Below, piece by piece: positions 2,546-43,353 of a stretch of DNA of 64,000 nt; position 1 is the first letter of the stretch, and each line of letters begins with the position of its first letter. The notes beneath the pieces were generated by a model, which was not told where the DNA came from, did not search any database, and saw only the letters and a program-made list of their open reading frames with translations. The stretch is taken from NCBI GenBank assembly GCA_040219085.1, contig JAVJTC010000034.1, positions 1 to 64,000 of the forward strand, given 5' to 3'. Source of the DNA: Acidimicrobiales bacterium (GTDB lineage: Bacteria; Actinomycetota; Acidimicrobiia; Acidimicrobiales; JAVJTC01). A program made the position numbers and the translations under genes.

Positions 2546-3441
2546 ACGTCCCTCACGACGAGGGGGCCGACCCCGACGAGTTCGGATTCCTCGCTGACAA
2601 CGCCCGGGAGGTGGGCGTCGCCCCGGGTGCGGTGGCCCCGGTGCGCAGGGTGGCCGTCGACAGCGAAGCGGGCGCTGTCAGTGCGCTCGTGTGGGGCTTC
2701 GGTCCTCCGGAGGTGGTGTTCCTCCACGGCGGCGCGCAGAACGCACACACCTGGGACTCGACCATCATCTCGCTGGGCCACGACGCGGTGGCGTTCGATC
2801 TCCCCGGCCACGGCCACTCGCACTGGAGGGCCGACCACGACTACCTCCCCGACGCCAACGCCCGCTCGCTGCTGGGGCCGCTCCGGGCGCTCGCCCCGAC
2901 GGCCGGCACCCTCGTCGGGATGTCACTCGGCGGGCTCACCGCCCTCAGAATGGTCGCCTCGACGCCGGGCCTGGTCGAGCGACTCGTCCTCGTCGACATC
3001 ACGCCGGGAGTGACCAGGGAGAAGGCGAAGGCGATCACGGACTTCACCTCCGGCCCCGAATCGTTCGCATCGGTGGACGAGGTCCTCGAGCGTACGATCG
3101 CCTTCCACCCCGGGCGATCCGTCGCATCGTTGACCCGCGGTGTCGTCCACAACACCCGCACCCGGCCCGACGGGCGCGTGGTGTGGAGATGGGACTCCAT
3201 CCGCTCCCACGACGCGGGCCACGACTTCTCGCCCCTCTGGGCCGACGTCGCAGCCCTCACCGTGCCGACACTGCTGGTGCGGGGCCTCGCATCGGCGGTG
3301 GTCGATGACGACGACGTCGCCCGGATGCGCGCCAGCTGCGCGGATCTCACCGTCGTGGACGTCCCTGACGCGGGTCACTCCGTGCAGGGCGACGACCCGG
3401 TCGCGCTCGCAGGGGCGATCAGCGACTTCGCACGCCTCTGA
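2542..3441 (+). CDS. alpha/beta hydrolase
   Basis: A 299-aa cytoplasmic alpha/beta-hydrolase fold enzyme. The nucleophile elbow is GMSLGG, the oxyanion segment is FLHGGAQNAHTW, a DLPGHGHS strand-loop follows, and the catalytic histidine lies in DAGHSVQGDD near the C-terminus. The substrate cannot be told from sequence; esters, epoxides and C-C bonds are all possible in this superfamily. The GTG start at 2542 overlaps the upstream stop (GTGA), so it is translationally coupled to the stress-protein gene. Confidence 0.8.
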   Translation: MNVPHDEGADPDEFGFLADNAREVGVAPGAVAPVRRVAVDSEAGAVSALVWGFGPPEVVFLHGGAQNAHTWDSTIISLGHDAVAFDLPGHGHSHWRADHDYLPDANARSLLGPLRALAPTAGTLVGMSLGGLTALRMVASTPGLVERLVLVDITPGVTREKAKAITDFTSGPESFASVDEVLERTIAFHPGRSVASLTRGVVHNTRTRPDGRVVWRWDSIRSHDAGHDFSPLWADVAALTVPTLLVRGLASAVVDDDDVARMRASCADLTVVDVPDAGHSVQGDDPVALAGAISDFARL

Positions 3442-6992: not shown

Positions 6993-8225
6993 TCACGCCG
7001 GATCGCGCAGGCAGGCCTCGGCGACGCGTCGGCCCGAGAACATGGCGCCCTGGATCGATGCCGTGTCCCGATGATCGCCGCAGACCCACAGGCCGTCGGC
7101 GACCCTCACGGTACGGCGTGGCCGGAACGGCGGACTCTGGTCCGGCTGACCGTGGGCGATCCGGTGGGTGACGAGGTGGTCCCAGGTGTCCACGACGGGG
7201 CCGAACCAGCCCCTCAGCTGATCACGGACCCGGTCGGCGAGGTCCTCGCCGGTCTCACCCGGACACGCCGCGACGATGGTCGCCCTCTTCGGCGGGGCGT
7301 AGTCCGGCGCGACGTCGCTGGGCACGGCGACGTTGAGAGCCGGACCCTGTCCTGTGCCGTCGAGGGCGATCACCGGTCTGTCGAGAGGCGACGCATCGGC
7401 TGAGAACCACACCGCACCGACGGACTTCGACCGGACCGGACCCAGCCCGAGGAGATCGGCGGCCACGGGTCCCTCGGTGGCGACGATGACGTGGCGGGCG
7501 GTGAACTCCGCTCCTGCCGTGCGGACCATTCCGGGAGAGACCTCGAGGACCGGTGTGGCGAGTCTGATGGCGCCCGCCGGCAGCCGGGCGGCGAGCTGGT
7601 CGGGGATCCGCTGCATGCCCCTCGCCGGGACGCCGGCCCCGCCTTCGCCGAGGCATTTGAAGATGGTGTCGAACATGCGGCTCGATGTGGCGAGGCCCGG
7701 GTCCAACTGGATCCCGCCGAACAACGGCCGGAAGAAGGAGCGGATCATCCGATCCGAGAAGCCGAGAGCTTCGAGGTGCGACAGCGTGGTCTCGTCGCGA
7801 CCTCGCAGCAGGTCCGGGGTCGAGGTCCGTGCGAGGCGGAGGCGGAGTCGGAGGATGCGCGCCTTGTCGGCCGGCGTCCCTACCCGGCTACGGACCGTCG
7901 CGGGAAGCGACGAGGGTCGCCGGAGGGGGTCGCCGAGGTCGTCGAAGCGGTCGCCGAGCCACACACGCGCTCCCGGGGCGAAGGTCCGGATGTCGAGGGC
8001 CCGCATGTCGAGGCGGCTGCGGAGCTCGGGGTAGGCCTCGAGAGCGACCTGGAAGCCGCGGTCGACCAGGTGACCGGCGACGTTGTCGGTGCGCACTCGT
8101 CCCCCCACGCCGTCACCGGCTTCCAGGACCGTGACGCTACGGCCGGCCTCGTGCAGGAGGGTCGCAGCCGACAAGCCGGCGAGTCCGGCGCCGACGACGA
8201 GGACGTCGGGGTCGGACCCGTTCAC
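6993..8225 (-). CDS. FAD-dependent oxidoreductase (amine oxidase / phytoene desaturase-like)
   Basis: A 410-aa flavoprotein. The N-terminal dinucleotide-binding motif is VLVVGAGLAGLSAA (residues 9-22), with EAGDGVGGRVRT after it, and the C-terminal FAD motif includes LWVCGDHRDTASIQGAMFSG. This is the layout of the flavin-containing amine oxidase/phytoene desaturase superfamily. It has no obvious signal peptide or membrane helix. The GTG start overlaps the anti-sigma stop (GTGTGA), placing it in a sigma/anti-sigma operon and suggesting control by that ECF factor. The substrate is unknown. Confidence 0.8.
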   Translation of the reverse strand: MNGSDPDVLVVGAGLAGLSAATLLHEAGRSVTVLEAGDGVGGRVRTDNVAGHLVDRGFQVALEAYPELRSRLDMRALDIRTFAPGARVWLGDRFDDLGDPLRRPSSLPATVRSRVGTPADKARILRLRLRLARTSTPDLLRGRDETTLSHLEALGFSDRMIRSFFRPLFGGIQLDPGLATSSRMFDTIFKCLGEGGAGVPARGMQRIPDQLAARLPAGAIRLATPVLEVSPGMVRTAGAEFTARHVIVATEGPVAADLLGLGPVRSKSVGAVWFSADASPLDRPVIALDGTGQGPALNVAVPSDVAPDYAPPKRATIVAACPGETGEDLADRVRDQLRGWFGPVVDTWDHLVTHRIAHGQPDQSPPFRPRRTVRVADGLWVCGDHRDTASIQGAMFSGRRVAEACLRDPA

Positions 8226-32960: not shown

Positions 32961-35900
32961 CTAGATACAGGAACCGAGTAGCTGGTAGAGGCGCCCGCCC
33001 GGTCCCGGCGCGAGGAAAGGCGTCCACGGGGTCGTGCCCGTCGGGTAGTCGATCTGGGCTTCGGCCGTGTACAGCGGGAAGCCGTTGGTGAGATCGGGCC
33101 CCGCCGGGACGGAGTTCAGAGCGACCGAGTCCGCCTGCAGAAGCGACGCCTCGAGCTCGGCGATGCACTGGGCGCCCCTCGGCCCGGCCAGGAGTTGAGG
33201 CATCACCGTCGCGATCACGCCGTCACGGTCGCCGCTCGCCAGCGCGGCGTCGACGCGGGTGAAGAACTCCTCGAGCAGGACCCGCGTGAGGTGCTCGTCG
33301 GGGTCGCCGTCGAAGGCTTCGCGGGGCTGGCTTCCGTCGATGTCGGGCGGGATCGTGTCGTCGGCGTCGAAGTCGACGACGTCTCCCGGTACAGGGAGAA
33401 GTGGGTCGTCGATACCGGCGCCGCTGATGTCGCCGCCCGATGTGGCGGGATCGGGGATCGCGCCGGGTTCGCCGTCGTTGTGGAAGGCGGTGGCGCGGTA
33501 GCTGAGCTCACCGTCGGGGAGTTCCTCGCGGGGGATCAGCCACACGAGCGTGTCGTCGAACTCGATGACCGCAGCAGCGGAGTAGCGGGGAAGCCCCGGG
33601 ATCCCGTCGCTGAAGCCGTCGGCGTGCATCTGGCGGTCGCCGTCCTCGTCGATCTCGAGGCGGTACCAGAACTCGGTTCCATCGAAGAAGTCGGCGTCGA
33701 ACTCGGGCGGGGCGGAGTAGTCGGTGTCGTCCTCGGCGTCGTCGAAGGCGAGCCCGTAGGTGAAGCTGCGCGCGCCCTCGCCGATCGGTCCGGCCAGTTC
33801 CACGCCGACCATGACGAACTCACCCTCAGGGGCGGGCCCTGCTCCGATCGGGCACGTGACGCGGTACTCGTCGGTGACGCCGCCGCAGGGGAACGCCGAG
33901 GCGTTCATCAGCCGGCGCACGCGCTCGTCGACGAGGCGGATGATCGCGGACCACACCTGGTCTATCTGGGAACCGGGGAGAGGTTGCCCGTCGACGCCGA
34001 CGATGGAGAACGTGATCTCGTCCTCGTCGGGGTCGTCTTCGATCACCAGGAACTGCGCGGCGCCGTCCGGGCCGGCGAATCGGGCGACGACCTCCTGGTA
34101 GCGGCTCAGATCCGGGCCCGCGGGGGTGGGTTCAGGCGTCGGCTCCGGGGTCGGTTCGGGAGTGGCGTCGGGTTCCTCCGTCGGCTCCGGGGTGGGGTCG
34201 GGCTCCTGCGTGGGTTCGGGGGTCGGTTCGGCGGAGGCGGTAGCCGTAGGTGTCGGGTCCGATGCTGTCTCGTCGTCGTCACCGCCGCCGGACAGGGCGA
34301 TCACGCCGACGACGACGGCGATGACGGCCACGACGACGCCACCGATGATGATCGGGAACTTGAACTTCGATCCGCCGCCATCGTCTCCTTCACCGGCGGG
34401 GGTGTCGTCGGTGCCGGTGGGCGGCGGGGGCGGTCCCGCGTCTCGGCGGACCGTGCGGTCCTCGACGAAACCGGTGCTGTCGTCCCACAGCGGGTCGGGG
34501 TCGCCGACCCTCGCCAGGCGTTCGCGCCTTCTGATCTCCCGCTGGCTGTCGGTGATCGACACCAACGCCTCATAGACCGCGTTGAGCACGCTGGTTCGGA
34601 AGGTCGACCGATCGTCGGTGTCGTGGTCGCTTCCGACGATCATCCTCGGAAGGTTCCGCCGGACGTCCCAGACCCGCAGGTAGCAGCTCCAACCGCTGTA
34701 GGACCGCACCTCGCTCTCGGGATCGAGCTCGTCGTCTCGCTGCTCCCACTCGTGATACGCGAGATCGATGACGAACCAGCCGGCGAGGACCTGATCACGC
34801 CGCATCCACAGCGGTACGCGGATATCGATCGGCCGCCCGTGCTGATCGAGCGGGAAGCGCATGACCGTCCGGTGCTTCTCGAGGCTGTCGGGATCCGGAT
34901 CCCTCTGGCAGTTCCCGGGAGAGAAGGTCAACATCCCCTCGACGTCGAACCCGTAGGCCCGGAGTGCGTCCTCGGCGGCGAATCGGGCCCGCAGGTGGTC
35001 CGGGTGCATGGCCTGGTCCGACCGGGGCTCCAGAGCGAAGCCGAACGAGGGCCCCGCCCATCCGATCGCCCTCGCCGCGTCCCAGCGCTCCTTGGGGACG
35101 GGTTCCCCCGACCGCCAGGCCTGGACCTCTTCGGGCGTCGCCGGCGCGACCTCGGGCTCCTCGGCGACGTCATCCGCGCCTTCCCGCGCGTCCAGTTCGG
35201 CCTCCACGGCGGCGACGGCGGCCTCCACTTCGGATCCGATCCCGATGGTCGCGTCCTCGGTCGCTGAGCGGGTTTCGTCGTCCTCATCGTCGGCCATCCC
35301 GGCGATGTCGGGACACATCTCGCGCTCGCACCGCTCGAGTAGCTCCCTCAGAATGGCGAGCCTGGACTCCGCGCGGCGGGCCACCCGCTCGTCGTTGTCC
35401 GCGCCGCGCAGCAGCTCCCGGCGTTCGAATCCGTCGGCATCGAGGGCACGCCGTCGGTCTCTCGCCGCTCGTCTGGCGCAGGCGACGATGAAGTGTCGTT
35501 TGTAGGCGATCTCGTCGCAGAGGGCCTGGCAGTGCGGGCAGTCGCTGGTGGGACGTACCGAGGCGATCTCCTCGGCGATCTCGGGTGAGTTGACGGCGCT
35601 CTCCATGTTCGTGAATCGCTCGGCGTCGCTCGGGGGGTCGCAGAGGAGGTCGCGGCAGTAGCGGAGTCGGATTCGGGCACGCCACTCGGCCTCCTCGGCG
35701 TCGACCAGCGCTTCGGGTGAGCGCAGCTCGCCGAGGAGATTCGCATCGTCGAGAGCCGAGCGGTGCCGCTGGGCGTCCCGAAGAGCGTCGTAGTCCTCAC
35801 GACACGGCTCGCAGATCTCGTCGCGGGGATCCCGGTCCGGGACACCGATCGGCTCGACCTCGGTCTCGACGCCGGTCTCGGATAGCGGAAGGTCGTCGGG

Positions 35901-36398
35901 GGCGTCCTCCAGATCGCCCTCCCAGGAGACCTCGGGCGGGACGGGTACCTCGTCGATGAGCTCACCGAGATCGGCCATGGCGTCGTCGAGGGACATCCCG
36001 CACGAGTGAATCCGGCACTCGACGAGGCTCTGGGCCATCGTCGCCGCGCTGATGCGCTCGGTTGTGAGTCGGCGGGCGATCTCAGCTCGTGCCGCCCGGA
36101 TGTCGGCGCCACGGGTGTCGCCGTACTCGCGCTCGAGGAACTCGAGGCGTCGATCGTCCGCGGCGAGCACGTCGGCGAAGCTGCGGTGCAGTGTCACCGC
36201 GTGCGCAAGAGTGTCGCACTCCTGGCAGTGCGACTCGACTGCGTTGGCGAGCCAGATGTCGTGGTGTCGTCCGCCTGGCTCGTAGGAGTCGGGGTTCGAC
36301 CAGGATCGTGGAGCGTCGTCGCTCAGCCACTCCTCGTCGTCGAGTGGCGAACCCCCGTCCGAGTTGCTGCGACCCGATCCTTCGTCCCCGTCGTTCAC
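32961..36398 (-). CDS. large membrane protein with triple cysteine-repeat cytoplasmic region
   Basis: A 1145-aa protein of no family I recognise. N-terminal cytoplasmic part (1-680): three repeats, each a CxxC pair, a helical charged stretch and a CxxxxC pair (C58/61-C128/133, C196/199-C248/253, C287/290-C357/362). The first and third have identical spacing (66 residues between pairs), the second 48. A domain with WMRRDQVLAGWFVIDLAYHE follows. One membrane helix (681-701) and a Thr-Pro-Glu-Pro linker (715-759) lead to a 385-aa acidic outer domain. GTG 36398 is chosen for its GGGGGG site; ATG 36464 would add 22 residues. Zinc binding by the repeats is inferred. Confidence 0.75.
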   Translation of the reverse strand: MNDGDEGSGRSNSDGGSPLDDEEWLSDDAPRSWSNPDSYEPGGRHHDIWLANAVESHCQECDTLAHAVTLHRSFADVLAADDRRLEFLEREYGDTRGADIRAARAEIARRLTTERISAATMAQSLVECRIHSCGMSLDDAMADLGELIDEVPVPPEVSWEGDLEDAPDDLPLSETGVETEVEPIGVPDRDPRDEICEPCREDYDALRDAQRHRSALDDANLLGELRSPEALVDAEEAEWRARIRLRYCRDLLCDPPSDAERFTNMESAVNSPEIAEEIASVRPTSDCPHCQALCDEIAYKRHFIVACARRAARDRRRALDADGFERRELLRGADNDERVARRAESRLAILRELLERCEREMCPDIAGMADDEDDETRSATEDATIGIGSEVEAAVAAVEAELDAREGADDVAEEPEVAPATPEEVQAWRSGEPVPKERWDAARAIGWAGPSFGFALEPRSDQAMHPDHLRARFAAEDALRAYGFDVEGMLTFSPGNCQRDPDPDSLEKHRTVMRFPLDQHGRPIDIRVPLWMRRDQVLAGWFVIDLAYHEWEQRDDELDPESEVRSYSGWSCYLRVWDVRRNLPRMIVGSDHDTDDRSTFRTSVLNAVYEALVSITDSQREIRRRERLARVGDPDPLWDDSTGFVEDRTVRRDAGPPPPPTGTDDTPAGEGDDGGGSKFKFPIIIGGVVVAVIAVVVGVIALSGGGDDDETASDPTPTATASAEPTPEPTQEPDPTPEPTEEPDATPEPTPEPTPEPTPAGPDLSRYQEVVARFAGPDGAAQFLVIEDDPDEDEITFSIVGVDGQPLPGSQIDQVWSAIIRLVDERVRRLMNASAFPCGGVTDEYRVTCPIGAGPAPEGEFVMVGVELAGPIGEGARSFTYGLAFDDAEDDTDYSAPPEFDADFFDGTEFWYRLEIDEDGDRQMHADGFSDGIPGLPRYSAAAVIEFDDTLVWLIPREELPDGELSYRATAFHNDGEPGAIPDPATSGGDISGAGIDDPLLPVPGDVVDFDADDTIPPDIDGSQPREAFDGDPDEHLTRVLLEEFFTRVDAALASGDRDGVIATVMPQLLAGPRGAQCIAELEASLLQADSVALNSVPAGPDLTNGFPLYTAEAQIDYPTGTTPWTPFLAPGPGGRLYQLLGSCI
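34122..34256 (-). repeat. low-complexity Pro-Thr-Glu-Pro coding repeat
   Basis: Irregular short repeats encode the linker just outside the membrane helix of the 1145-aa protein (PTPEPT units). Such stretches act as extended wall-spanning spacers. Confidence 0.7.
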
Positions 36399-36489
36399 CG
36401 TGACCCCCCGATCCGTCGAGAACAGGTTTCCCCACAGGAGAGAGGTGTACAACCGATCTTGCATTCACGAGCCGGTCTTCGGTGTTGGG

Positions 36490-37671
36490 TCAGCCCCTGA
36501 ACTGGCGGAAGAAGTCCCGGACCTCGGTTGCGACGAGGTCGGGCTCCTCGGCGGCGGCGAAGTGGCCTCCGGCGGGCTGCAGGGTCCAGCGGGCGATGTT
36601 GGCGACCCGCTCACATGTTCTGCGCGGTGTGAAGACGAGATCACCGGGGAACACGGCCATGGCCGTCGGCGCCTCGACGATGGGGGAGCGGTCATGTGCC
36701 GGCTTCCACGGCACCGAGAAGCGGCCGTAGTAGATGCGCAGGCAGCTCCAGAAGCTGTCGGTGTGCCAGTACAGCGAGGCGAGCGTGATCAGCTCGTCTT
36801 TGCTGAAGCGGCGCTCGACGTCACGGTGACCGGTGTCGTCCTCGCAGTCGCTCCAGTTCCGGCGCCTCTCGACGAGCCAGGCGAGCAGACCAGATGGGGA
36901 ATCGTGCATGGCGTACGCGAGCGACTGCGGGTCGGTGCCCTGGACCGCGGAGTGGGCCTTGGCGAACGCCAGGCGGGCCCGCGTGCGCTCCTGGTAGTCC
37001 TCTTCGCCGGGGTCGCAGTCAGCCGGGTCGATGTTCTCGCGGTCGATGCCGTTGAACGCGGGCATCGTGATCTGGAGGCCGTGAATCCGGTCGGCGTAGG
37101 CGTGGCCGAGTTCCGTGCAGACATGGGCGCCCCAGTCGCCGCCCTGGGCGCAGAACGTGTCGTACCCGAGCACGTCGACCATGAGCTTCACCCACAGGCC
37201 GGCCACGTCACGGGTGCTGTAGTGGCCCACGGACAGCGGCGTCGAGAACGTGAATCCGGGAAGCGACGGGATGACCACGTCGAAGGAGTCGGAGGCGTCG
37301 AGTCCGTGGGCGACCGGATCGGTGAGTGGCCCGATGAGGCCCCGGAGGTCCCAGAAGCTCCACGGCCAACCATGGGTGCACACGATGGGCAGCGGGTCCG
37401 GACCCTTGCCCCGTACATGGATGAAATGGATCGGGAAGCCGTCGATCTCGGTGCGGAAGTGCGGCAACTCGTTCATGGCCGCCTCGTGGGCCCGCCAGTC
37501 GTAGCGGTGCCGCCAGTGATCGACGAGTTCTTCGAGATAGGGGCGGGGGGTCCCGTAGCGCCAGTTGTCGTTGTCGGCGTCTCCGGGCCAGCGGATCGAG
37601 GCGAGCCGGCGGTCGAGGTCGTCGAGCGACGACTGTGGGATGTCGATTCTGAACTCGTCGACCGTGGTCAT
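36490..37671 (-). CDS. epoxide hydrolase family protein
   Basis: A 393-aa alpha/beta hydrolase with the N-terminal epoxide-hydrolase domain (FRIDIPQSSLDDLDRRL, RYDWRAHEAAMNELPHF). Oxyanion HGWPWSFWD, nucleophile Asp in CAQGGDWGAHV, and the catalytic His near the C-terminus in AGGHFAAAEEPD are all in place. Such enzymes open epoxides to diols in the cytoplasm; some actinobacterial homologues act on lipids. ATG 37671 is the natural start. It diverges from the phosphatase gene across 107 bases. Confidence 0.88.
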   Translation of the reverse strand: MTTVDEFRIDIPQSSLDDLDRRLASIRWPGDADNDNWRYGTPRPYLEELVDHWRHRYDWRAHEAAMNELPHFRTEIDGFPIHFIHVRGKGPDPLPIVCTHGWPWSFWDLRGLIGPLTDPVAHGLDASDSFDVVIPSLPGFTFSTPLSVGHYSTRDVAGLWVKLMVDVLGYDTFCAQGGDWGAHVCTELGHAYADRIHGLQITMPAFNGIDRENIDPADCDPGEEDYQERTRARLAFAKAHSAVQGTDPQSLAYAMHDSPSGLLAWLVERRRNWSDCEDDTGHRDVERRFSKDELITLASLYWHTDSFWSCLRIYYGRFSVPWKPAHDRSPIVEAPTAMAVFPGDLVFTPRRTCERVANIARWTLQPAGGHFAAAEEPDLVATEVRDFFRQFRG

Positions 37672-37778
37672 CGCCGTCCCGATTCCTCGCGTGTCGATGG
37701 GGGCCGCCAAGACCGTAGTGGCACCCGCGTGGGCTGGTACTTTCGACTGCCCAGGCCACGACATCCGAGACGTCACAA

Positions 37779-40686: not shown

Positions 40687-40971
40687 CTACCGCAACCCGT
40701 CCGACATGGCTGTCGCGGATTCGTCATGGACGTCGTCGATGATGCCCACGACGACCGTTCGGATCGGTCCCGACGTCACGCCCAGGATCTGACGGGCGCC
40801 CGTCCCCTCGTCGAGCAGGAGGACACGGTCGCCGATTCCCGCGTCGACGACGTCGACGGCGATCAGGTACTCCGCCGAACCCTCGAGCTCACACATGAGC
40901 AGGCGCTGCGCGTCGAAGATCTCGTGGTTGATCGTGGAGACCACCGTGCCGATGACGTTCGCGAGCTTCAC
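40687..40971 (-). CDS. EutN/CcmL-family BMC shell vertex protein (BMC-P), copy 1
   Basis: A 94-aa pentameric shell protein that caps the vertices of a bacterial microcompartment. Family features are VIGTVVSTINHEIFDAQRLL, a central AVDVVDAGIGDRVLLLDEG and the C-terminal VVGIIDDVHD. It is the last gene of the operon and its GTG overlaps the upstream EutN stop (GTGA). With the two other copies it gives three distinct vertex proteins in one locus. Confidence 0.9.
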   Translation of the reverse strand: MKLANVIGTVVSTINHEIFDAQRLLMCELEGSAEYLIAVDVVDAGIGDRVLLLDEGTGARQILGVTSGPIRTVVVGIIDDVHDESATAMSDGLR

Positions 40972-41282
40972 GGTTCGACGTGTCGACCGGTTCGACGTCC
41001 CGCCCGGCCCGTCGGGTCGAGGTCGACGTCGTCGACGATGCCCACGATGGCGTGGTCGACGGGGACGAAGGACGGTTCGAGAGCCTCGGCGGCTTCCCGC
41101 GACGCCACGTAATAGACGAGTTCGCCGGGGCCGGACATCCGCACGGCGTCGGCAGCGACCACGCACCGGCCGGCCGGCTCGCGGTTCTTGTCGAGCGGCT
41201 GGACGACGAGGAGCTTCACTCCTCGGAGGCCGGGACTCTTCACGGTTGCGACCACGGTGCCGCGTACCCGCCCGAGCAGCAT
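40968..41282 (-). CDS. EutN/CcmL-family BMC shell vertex protein (BMC-P), copy 2
   Basis: A 104-aa EutN/CcmL protein: MLLGRVRGTVVATVKSPGL, VKLLVVQPLDKN, SGPGELVYYVASREAAEAL and VDHAIVGIVDDVDLD. It is more divergent in the central loop (residues 45-75) than copy 1. ATG at 41282 overlaps the BMC-T stop by one base. The basic tail (GRAGRRTGRHVEP) is unusual for the family and could contact cargo or another shell protein, which is inference only. Confidence 0.9.
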   Translation of the reverse strand: MLLGRVRGTVVATVKSPGLRGVKLLVVQPLDKNREPAGRCVVAADAVRMSGPGELVYYVASREAAEALEPSFVPVDHAIVGIVDDVDLDPTGRAGRRTGRHVEP

Positions 41283-41893
41283 CAGGCGCTGCCCGTCCGC
41301 ACGACGCGGCGGAACCGCAGGTCTGCGGCGAGGTCGGCCCGCATCTCCGGAGCGAGTTGGGCGATCACGACCGAGTGCAGCACTCTTCCCGGGTCCAGGC
41401 GGGAGAGCCCTGCCTCCACCGCCGCCTCCGTCTCCGCGAGCACGCCGCCGAGCATGACATAACCCTTTCCGCCGAGGCCGTCGGCGAGTCGCAGGGTGGC
41501 GATCTGGACGTCCGCCGCTTTGACGGCGGCGTCCGCAGCGTCGATGGCGGCCGCCACGCCGGTGCACTCGATGATGCCGACCGCCTCGCCGTCCGCGGTT
41601 GCGGCCTGGGAGTCCGTCACAATCGCGGCTGCTACTGCAGCGGCGACGGCGGGAAGGAACACTTCGTCGATCACCACGTTCCCAGCGGTCGCACGGCCGG
41701 TCTCGAGAGCGATCTCGACGCTCGCCGTGTCACCGGTGACGGCCAGGAGGTAATGGCCCGGATGAACGGTGCCGCTGTAGATCGCCGAGACGGGAGATGC
41801 CTTCACCATCGCGTCGCCGGTGAGCACTCCGATGGCGACGGAATCGAGTTCGAGCAGACCCAGGGCCGGGTCGGCGGTCGTGGCGAGGGCCAC
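41282..41893 (-). CDS. tandem-domain BMC shell protein (BMC-T)
   Basis: A 203-aa protein with two BMC folds: ALGLLELDSVAIGVLTGDAM (about 10-29) and EAVGIIECTGVAAAIDAADA (about 103-122). Three copies form a pseudohexameric facet tile. Pore-loop candidates are SGTVHPGHY in the first domain and DGLGGKGYV in the second. BMC-T tiles can gate larger pores for cofactors or substrates. GTG start two bases after the aldehyde dehydrogenase stop. No Fe-S cysteine was seen at the pore. Confidence 0.9.
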   Translation of the reverse strand: MALATTADPALGLLELDSVAIGVLTGDAMVKASPVSAIYSGTVHPGHYLLAVTGDTASVEIALETGRATAGNVVIDEVFLPAVAAAVAAAIVTDSQAATADGEAVGIIECTGVAAAIDAADAAVKAADVQIATLRLADGLGGKGYVMLGGVLAETEAAVEAGLSRLDPGRVLHSVVIAQLAPEMRADLAADLRFRRVVRTGSA

Positions 41894-41895
41894 GT

Positions 41896-43353
41896 TCAGA
41901 CGATCCGCAGTGAACCGACGACCGTCACGCGCCGTATGCGCGAGAAAGTGCGGGGACGCGTCAGCCCTTCACCGGTGGGGCTGGCGATGGAGAACGAGGT
42001 GAATCCTTCGCCTCCCTGGCCGAGCCCGGCGAAGTTGGGGCCGTTCGCCACGAGAATCGAACAGTTCATGGCCCTCGCCATCCGGGTGATGGTGTCGACG
42101 TTGGTGGAGTGGATCGAGGCGGTGTGGCGGAAGCCGTGCTCGGTCTTCACGGCGAGTTCGATGGCGGCCTCGACATCGTTGACCCGTACGACCGGCATGA
42201 CCGGCATCATCTGCTCGGTCCAGACGAGGTTGTGTTCCTTCGGCACCTCGGCGACGAGGAGGCGCACATCCGCGTCCACCTGAACGCCGATCTCTGCGAG
42301 GATCCGCCCTGCGTCCTTGCCGATCCAGGCCGGGTTGATGGAACCGGGCTTGTTCGGTGGGCCCATCTCCCGGAAGATGACCCGCTCGAGCCGCTTGAGT
42401 TCGTGCTCCTTGAGCCTGTAGGCGCCTGCGGCGGTCATCGCCGTCACGAGGCGATCGGCGACGGAGTCGACGACGATCGTCGTCTTCTCGTCGGTGCAGA
42501 TGATGCCGTTGTCGAAGGAGGCGCCCCGCACGATGTCGTGGCCGGCCTGGTCGACGTCGGCGGTCGTGTCGACGACGGCCGGTGGATTGCCCGGACCGGC
42601 GGTGATGGCCTTCTTCGGGGTCCGCAGGGCCTCGCCGACGACGGCCGGACCGCCGGTGACGAGTAGCACCGACACATCGGGGTGGCTCATGAGCTCCCTG
42701 GCCGAGTCCAGCGTCGGATTCGGCACGGCGGTCACCAGATCTGGCGGGCCGCCGGCGGCGACGATCGCGCGGTTGAGGATCTGGATGTTCTCGACGGAGA
42801 CGTTCTTCGCGCTCGGGTGGACGTTGAAGGTGACGGCGTTGCCGGCCGACACCATCGCGATCGTGTTGTTGATGATGGTCGAGGTCGGGTTGGTCGTCGG
42901 GGTGATGGACCCGATGACGCCGTAGGGCGCGTACTCGGTGACCATCATCCCGCCGTCGCCGGTGACCGCCTGCGGCTCGAGATCCTCGGGCCCCGGTGTC
43001 TTCGTCGTCACGAGGTGGTTCTTGATGACCTTGTCCTCGGCGCGCCCGAGGCCGGTCTCCTCTCGGGCGAGGTACGCGAGTCGCTCACCCTCGCGCAGCA
43101 TCGCCTCGCGGATCGCCTCGACGATGGTCTTGCGGCTGCCGAGCCCGGACTCGCGGTAGGTCACCGAGGCGCGTTTGGCAGCCGAGACCGCCGCGTCGAT
43201 CGTGGGATGGATTCCGTCGCCGAGACGTGCGGTGACATCGGCCATCTCCGCGGCGGCGTCGAGGGCCGGCCCGGTGTGTGTGCGCCCTTCGACGGCGGCG
43301 ACGCGTCCCTTGACCCGCGAGATGATCGCCTGGATCTCGGTGTCGCTCAGCAC
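41896..43353 (-). CDS. BMC-associated CoA-acylating aldehyde dehydrogenase (PduP/EutE-like)
   Basis: A 485-aa enzyme oxidising an aldehyde to acyl-CoA with NAD+ and CoA. The catalytic Cys is in SFDNGIICTDEK, the fold core is YGVIGSITPTTNPTSTIINN, and GPGNPPAVVDTTADV is present. These match PduP/EutE rather than hydrolytic dehydrogenases. The N-terminus (LSDTEIQAIISRVKGRVAAV) is a predicted amphipathic helix set off from the fold by a linker, the pattern of an encapsulation peptide. Its likely substrate is acetaldehyde made by DERA in the same operon. GTG start at 43353. Confidence 0.93.
   Translation of the reverse strand: MLSDTEIQAIISRVKGRVAAVEGRTHTGPALDAAAEMADVTARLGDGIHPTIDAAVSAAKRASVTYRESGLGSRKTIVEAIREAMLREGERLAYLAREETGLGRAEDKVIKNHLVTTKTPGPEDLEPQAVTGDGGMMVTEYAPYGVIGSITPTTNPTSTIINNTIAMVSAGNAVTFNVHPSAKNVSVENIQILNRAIVAAGGPPDLVTAVPNPTLDSARELMSHPDVSVLLVTGGPAVVGEALRTPKKAITAGPGNPPAVVDTTADVDQAGHDIVRGASFDNGIICTDEKTTIVVDSVADRLVTAMTAAGAYRLKEHELKRLERVIFREMGPPNKPGSINPAWIGKDAGRILAEIGVQVDADVRLLVAEVPKEHNLVWTEQMMPVMPVVRVNDVEAAIELAVKTEHGFRHTASIHSTNVDTITRMARAMNCSILVANGPNFAGLGQGGEGFTSFSIASPTGEGLTRPRTFSRIRRVTVVGSLRIV

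Follow-up and report, generated by a model that had tools for sequence, protein, structure and literature searches.

The three cysteine units encoded on the minus strand of the 64,000-nucleotide stretch of Acidimicrobiales DNA analysed here (the window) are conserved and are a real feature of a rare, orphan actinobacterial membrane protein, which together with its single orthologue constitutes a genuine new protein family of two known members. The protein matches no described family but is composed of parts of known kinds: a cysteine-pinned helical hairpin, an extracytoplasmic beta domain and an NTF2-like domain. The reading that we favour, to which we assign a probability of roughly one half, is that three Cys4 metal staples, presumably of zinc, would hold a rigid cytoplasmic arm in a receptor-like protein whose N terminus lies inside the cell and whose C terminus lies outside.

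Read from the GTG at 36398, the coding sequence (32961..36398, minus strand) specifies 1145 amino acids, which is the length given in a preliminary description of this DNA. An in-frame ATG is located upstream, at 36464, such that the full open reading frame (32961-36464, minus strand) comprises 1167 residues, and residue numbers below refer to this longer form. The GTG is preceded by a G-rich stretch, and the orthologue also starts near that position. The orthologue (locus L024, 3757–7146) was found in the Acidimicrobiales metagenome-assembled genome (MAG) OFTM10 when 84,980 species genomes were scanned with an alignment of the outer domain, and is 59% identical to the window protein over its whole length. 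Third codon positions vary most overall between the two genes, as expected of a translated sequence.

The preliminary description had claimed three CxxC...CxxxxC units, and these are present exactly as reported, at window positions 36227-35313 (minus strand). In unit 1 (36000..36227, minus) C80xxC83 is followed after 66 residues by C150xxxxC155; unit 2 (35640..35813, minus) comprises C218xxC221, 48 residues and C270xxxxC275, while unit 3 (35313..35540, minus) contains C309xxC312, extended by xxxC316, and, after 66 residues, C379xxxxC384. Two further cysteines in the region had been overlooked, C316, which is conserved, and C329, which is not. In composition-preserving shuffles of residues 60-400, three such units were never obtained (0/400,000) and two units arose 19 times in 400,000. 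As judged from the sequence, the three units are repeats of one pattern. Outside the cysteines, however, the window protein's own units resemble each other no more than shuffled controls do (z of 0.5-0.9), and a recent duplication as their origin is unsupported. The spacing of 66/48/66 holds for the window protein, but the identical spacing in the first and third units, to which attention had been drawn, does not extend to the orthologue, where the spacing is 66/48/68. Because the cysteine pairs of the orthologue's unit 3 are separated by 68 residues, the 66/66 match is, on this comparison, coincidental.

In this single pairwise comparison with one orthologue, none of the 12 pattern cysteines has been lost, nor has C316 (13 of the 14 cysteines of the region are kept), giving each putative site four conserved cysteines, while C329 and C594, both outside the pattern, are missing from the orthologue. 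Identity to the orthologue climbs along the protein, from about 44% in the cysteine arm through 66% in the middle domain (residues 440-680) to 78% in the outer beta domain, and the arm is thus the least conserved and fastest-evolving part. It is because the 12 cysteines are kept in a region that is only about 44% identical that the objection that they might not be conserved in homologues fails. Searches of 59 relatives and about 400 sampled genomes of the order and class did not reveal the cysteine half a second time, and the orthologue is the only other sampled genome sequence to contain cysteine units.

AlphaFold2, run on the two-sequence alignment, returned a model with a mean pLDDT of 59.5 and a pTM of 0.39, of which the cysteine arm is the most confident part. 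The units are helical, as had been proposed, with pLDDT values of about 75-86 and a turn about midway between the cysteine pairs. Units 2 and 3 are modelled as helix–turn–helix, the turn of unit 2 lying near RSPEA. Unit 1 is one continuous helix by DSSP, but its confidence dips at a Gly/Pro-containing stretch, Y114-GDTRG (YPGHRS in the orthologue), which probably marks its turn. In model numbering, the helix breaks occur at 185-190 in unit 2 and at 284-285 in unit 3, and the dip in unit 1 spans 51-60, against midpoints between the cysteine pairs of 186.5, 286.5 and 57.5, respectively. The turns of units 2 and 3 are therefore no more than about two residues away from the midpoint, and the dip in unit 1 spans it. 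Turns so placed are what a meeting of CxxC with CxxxxC would require, and the two pairs within each unit may be in contact. A Foldseek search with the cysteine and middle regions of the model yielded no match to a solved structure at E <= 0.001.

The one membrane helix that had been claimed is found at about residues 703-725 (34290..34358, minus), with lysines (K700/K702) preceding it and Asp and Glu residues following on its C-terminal side, charges that point to an N-in/C-out orientation. The Pro-Thr-Glu linker (34113..34289, minus), also described previously, is present in the window protein; it is not conserved, however, and the orthologue has a shorter, acidic linker at this position. The preliminary description did not record two domains of the protein, an NTF2-like C-terminal domain, considered below, and a conserved alpha/beta domain that connects the hairpin region to the membrane helix. 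The latter (about residues 483-652; 34509..35018, minus) would lie in the cytoplasm, is conserved in the orthologue and is modelled, at low confidence, as four strands and a long helix. In a single comparison, it is weakly similar (E of 5e-4) to the same position in a relative from an Acidimicrobiales MAG, ANT-92 (G098/L025).

That a large domain lies outside the cell, as had been suggested, is borne out by relatives that carry the outer beta domain (about residues 785-1010; 33435..34112, minus; conserved C860/C871) behind lipoprotein-type signals or single transmembrane helices, judged by eye (L016, L026, L050, L053 and L054). It is because the relatives bear such signals that we place the C-terminal half outside and the cysteine arm in the cytoplasm, and the inside-to-outside topology proposed here thus derives its support from related sequences. 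The relatives include a 391-residue transmembrane protein in genome G044 and a myxobacterial lipoprotein (L026), and another family of the class encodes up to three outer-domain lipoproteins or transmembrane proteins per genome. The 687-residue protein of ANT-92 resembles the window protein in its outer domain (50% identity), its single transmembrane helix and a possible remnant of the middle domain, but lacks any cysteine units; the hairpin arm is thus an optional N-terminal part. Similarly, lipoproteins and transmembrane proteins of other genomes of the class (G571, G411 and G634) and of the myxobacterium share the outer beta domain, its cysteine pair and the motif F-D-x-D-x-F ... T-x-x-W-Y, but differ in their N-terminal parts, which contain no CxxC/CxxxxC arrays. 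At loci L046-L054 (genomes G411, G491, G551, G571 and G634), the domain is found in lipoproteins and transmembrane proteins with the conserved cysteine pair and the longer motif F-D-x-D-x-F ... T-x-x-W-Y ... R-x-T-A-F, and one of these proteins has a marginal match to ZU5. The outer beta domain represents a wider, unnamed extracytoplasmic family that merits its own profile.

The C-terminal 110 or so residues (about 1055-1167; 32964..33302, minus; conserved C1100/C1166) look NTF2-like in the model, where, at pLDDT values mostly of 57-92, three helices are predicted to precede a curved sheet (HHH-EEEEEE), which would be the arrangement of the NTF2-like/SnoaL-like superfamily. Proteins with an NTF2 fold account for several of the top Foldseek matches, including a designed NTF2 fold (Foldseek probability 0.96) and NsrQ (0.84), although these matches are weak (E of about 0.1) and the resemblance is confined to the C-terminal domain and to the level of the fold. 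A Pfam scan of the outer-domain members returned no relevant NTF2-like profile. In G044, the gene directly after that for the outer-domain protein (L023 6667-7710) appears to specify a protein with a membrane anchor and, at its C terminus, a part that looks like the NTF2-like tail of the window protein, suggesting from sequence that the two outer domains can occur either split or fused.

The claim that the protein belongs to no known family withstood searches of Pfam, NCBIfam, PHROGs and the PDB. Scans with Pfam, NCBIfam, PHROGs and PADLOC returned only linker, low-complexity or insignificant matches, those to SslE, GltJ, TonB and PD-T4-6 all falling over residues 681-784. Sequence searches of the PDB gave nothing meaningful; the match to guanine deaminase (E of 0.019) covers only the CxxC-helix half of one unit. 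No relatives were found among plasmids, phages and viral contigs. A profile of the units (A3) searched against 346 genomes of the phylum produced no match to the cysteine units, the partial matches being devoid of the cysteine motifs and judged to be chance. Weak matches across the order were likewise set aside: L011 and L012 lie in unrelated frames of, by eye, mutase-type and SecD/F-type sequence, and the matched frame of L013 is interrupted by a stop. Paralogue matches within the organism's own genome were confined to the transmembrane helix and the Pro-rich linker.

An epoxide hydrolase gene (EHN and abhydrolase domains; 36490..37776, minus) is positioned upstream and co-directional, ending 26 bp before the ATG, but is probably unrelated to the cysteine-unit protein since it is absent beside the orthologue. 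The other window neighbours are a molybdopterin oxidoreductase gene on the opposite strand and, further off, a bacterial microcompartment locus (40687-43353, minus) that encodes a tandem BMC shell protein, an aldehyde dehydrogenase and two EutN/CcmL vertex proteins whose frames partly overlap. The orthologue, by contrast, sits beside small coiled-coil genes, with a gene for a tyrosine recombinase at L024 7784-8743 and, on the minus strand at 969-2129, one for an AAA ATPase. Three short L024 open reading frames in these flanks (2270-2800, 2903-3304 and 7193-7756) are alike, each having an 'ESMPP..W..LATK' motif, a coiled coil and a C-terminal hydrophobic segment. As no gene context is common to the two loci, and no functional partner was found, the neighbourhood provides no clue to function and assignment from operon neighbours was abandoned.

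We propose that the protein crosses the membrane once, its N-terminal half being cytoplasmic and its C-terminal half outside, and that the N-terminal arm would be made up of three antiparallel helical hairpins in succession. At the base of every hairpin, the CxxC that opens helix 1 would meet the CxxxxC that closes helix 2, and the four cysteines may jointly hold a single metal ion, in all likelihood Zn2+, stapling the hairpin shut. Cysteines that would be cytosolic and arranged as two facing pairs in every hairpin are best interpreted as Cys4 metal sites, with zinc as the default. The staples would keep the highly charged arm folded as three rigid hairpins, which most plausibly serve as a docking platform for a cytoplasmic partner. 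Through the alpha/beta domain and the membrane helix, the arm would be linked to the outer beta and NTF2-like domains, whose probable role is to recognize some ligand or partner within the cell envelope. We infer hairpin closure, metal binding, the identity of the metal and the receptor or scaffold role from this arrangement.

It could be argued that the arm is a plain, charged coiled-coil N terminus in which the cysteine pairs are individually incidental and have no joint function, a view consistent with the dissimilarity of the units outside the cysteines and with the rapid evolution of the arm. Conservation of 13 of 14 cysteines against a background of about 44%, the turns at the midpoints and the failure of 400,000 shuffles to generate three units, however, make this interpretation rather doubtful. 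A redox switch, in which reduced Cys4 hairpins carry zinc but release it as disulfides form under oxidative stress, altering the shape of the arm and signalling in a manner similar to RsrA, is unlikely, if slightly easier to entertain. Zinc-bound cysteine clusters in the bacterial cytosol can indeed switch in this way (RsrA; PMC4381287), and the conserved C316 gives unit 3 a CxxCxxxC arrangement with a possible spare thiol, but the two orthologues have no conserved neighbouring gene for a sigma factor, a reductase or a stress protein, and three equivalent sites appear structural rather than regulatory. A transmembrane sensor, in which the metal or redox state of an arm of three metal-stapled hairpins is coupled through the one helix to an extracellular ligand-binding domain, we consider as doubtful as incidental cysteines.

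The four conserved cysteines of each unit would, by pattern alone, also be compatible with an iron-sulfur cluster. It should be emphasized, however, that long helices separate the pairs, that the protein has no redox-enzyme domain and that the adjoining molybdopterin oxidoreductase gene runs in the opposite direction and is absent from the orthologue locus; an iron-sulfur protein is thus improbable. The topology might instead be reversed, with the cysteine arm outside and closed by two CHCH-like disulfides per hairpin, and the C-terminal domains in the cytoplasm. Helical hairpins with twin cysteines belong to the classic disulfide folds of the mitochondrial intermembrane space, and this would accord with such an orientation. 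Against it are the lack of an N-terminal signal, the charges flanking the membrane helix (lysines ahead of it, acidic residues behind) and the relatives that display the C-terminal beta domain, with its own conserved cysteine pair, outside the cell as lipoproteins or after a transmembrane helix, and we regard this as the least credible of the alternatives.

The closest parallels to the proposed metal-stapled arm are the small Tim proteins (Tim9/Tim10) and the CHCH, or twin CX9C, proteins, which have a helix-loop-helix with two facing cysteine pairs of the kind proposed here. These, however, are short mitochondrial proteins of an oxidizing compartment, with one hairpin per protein and CX3C or CX9C motifs, whereas the window protein and its orthologue combine CX2C with CX4C and the window protein has three predicted hairpins in one bacterial cytoplasmic arm; no unit has a relevant Pfam match to these families. 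When reduced, small Tim proteins, with their helix-loop-helix and twin CX3C, bind Zn2+ 1:1 through all four cysteines (PMC3759932). ComFB, a competence protein of Bacillus subtilis, is a cytosolic, helical bacterial protein with a Cys4 zinc site that is thought to lock a helix (PMC4381287). The window protein would resemble ComFB in having an unusually spaced Cys4 zinc site, but ComFB is a small obligate dimer with three close cysteines and one distant (C25, C27, C30 and C88), and a Pfam scan of the window protein gave no match to the ComFB family, returning only a low-complexity match in the linker.

The list of paired-cysteine helical hairpins is short, and the best-known examples are disulfide folds that reside outside the cytosol. 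Three consecutive, predicted Cys4-closed hairpins in one bacterial cytoplasmic arm are an unusual addition to this list and, if zinc is confirmed, would represent a compact and easily tested metal-stapled coiled-coil module.
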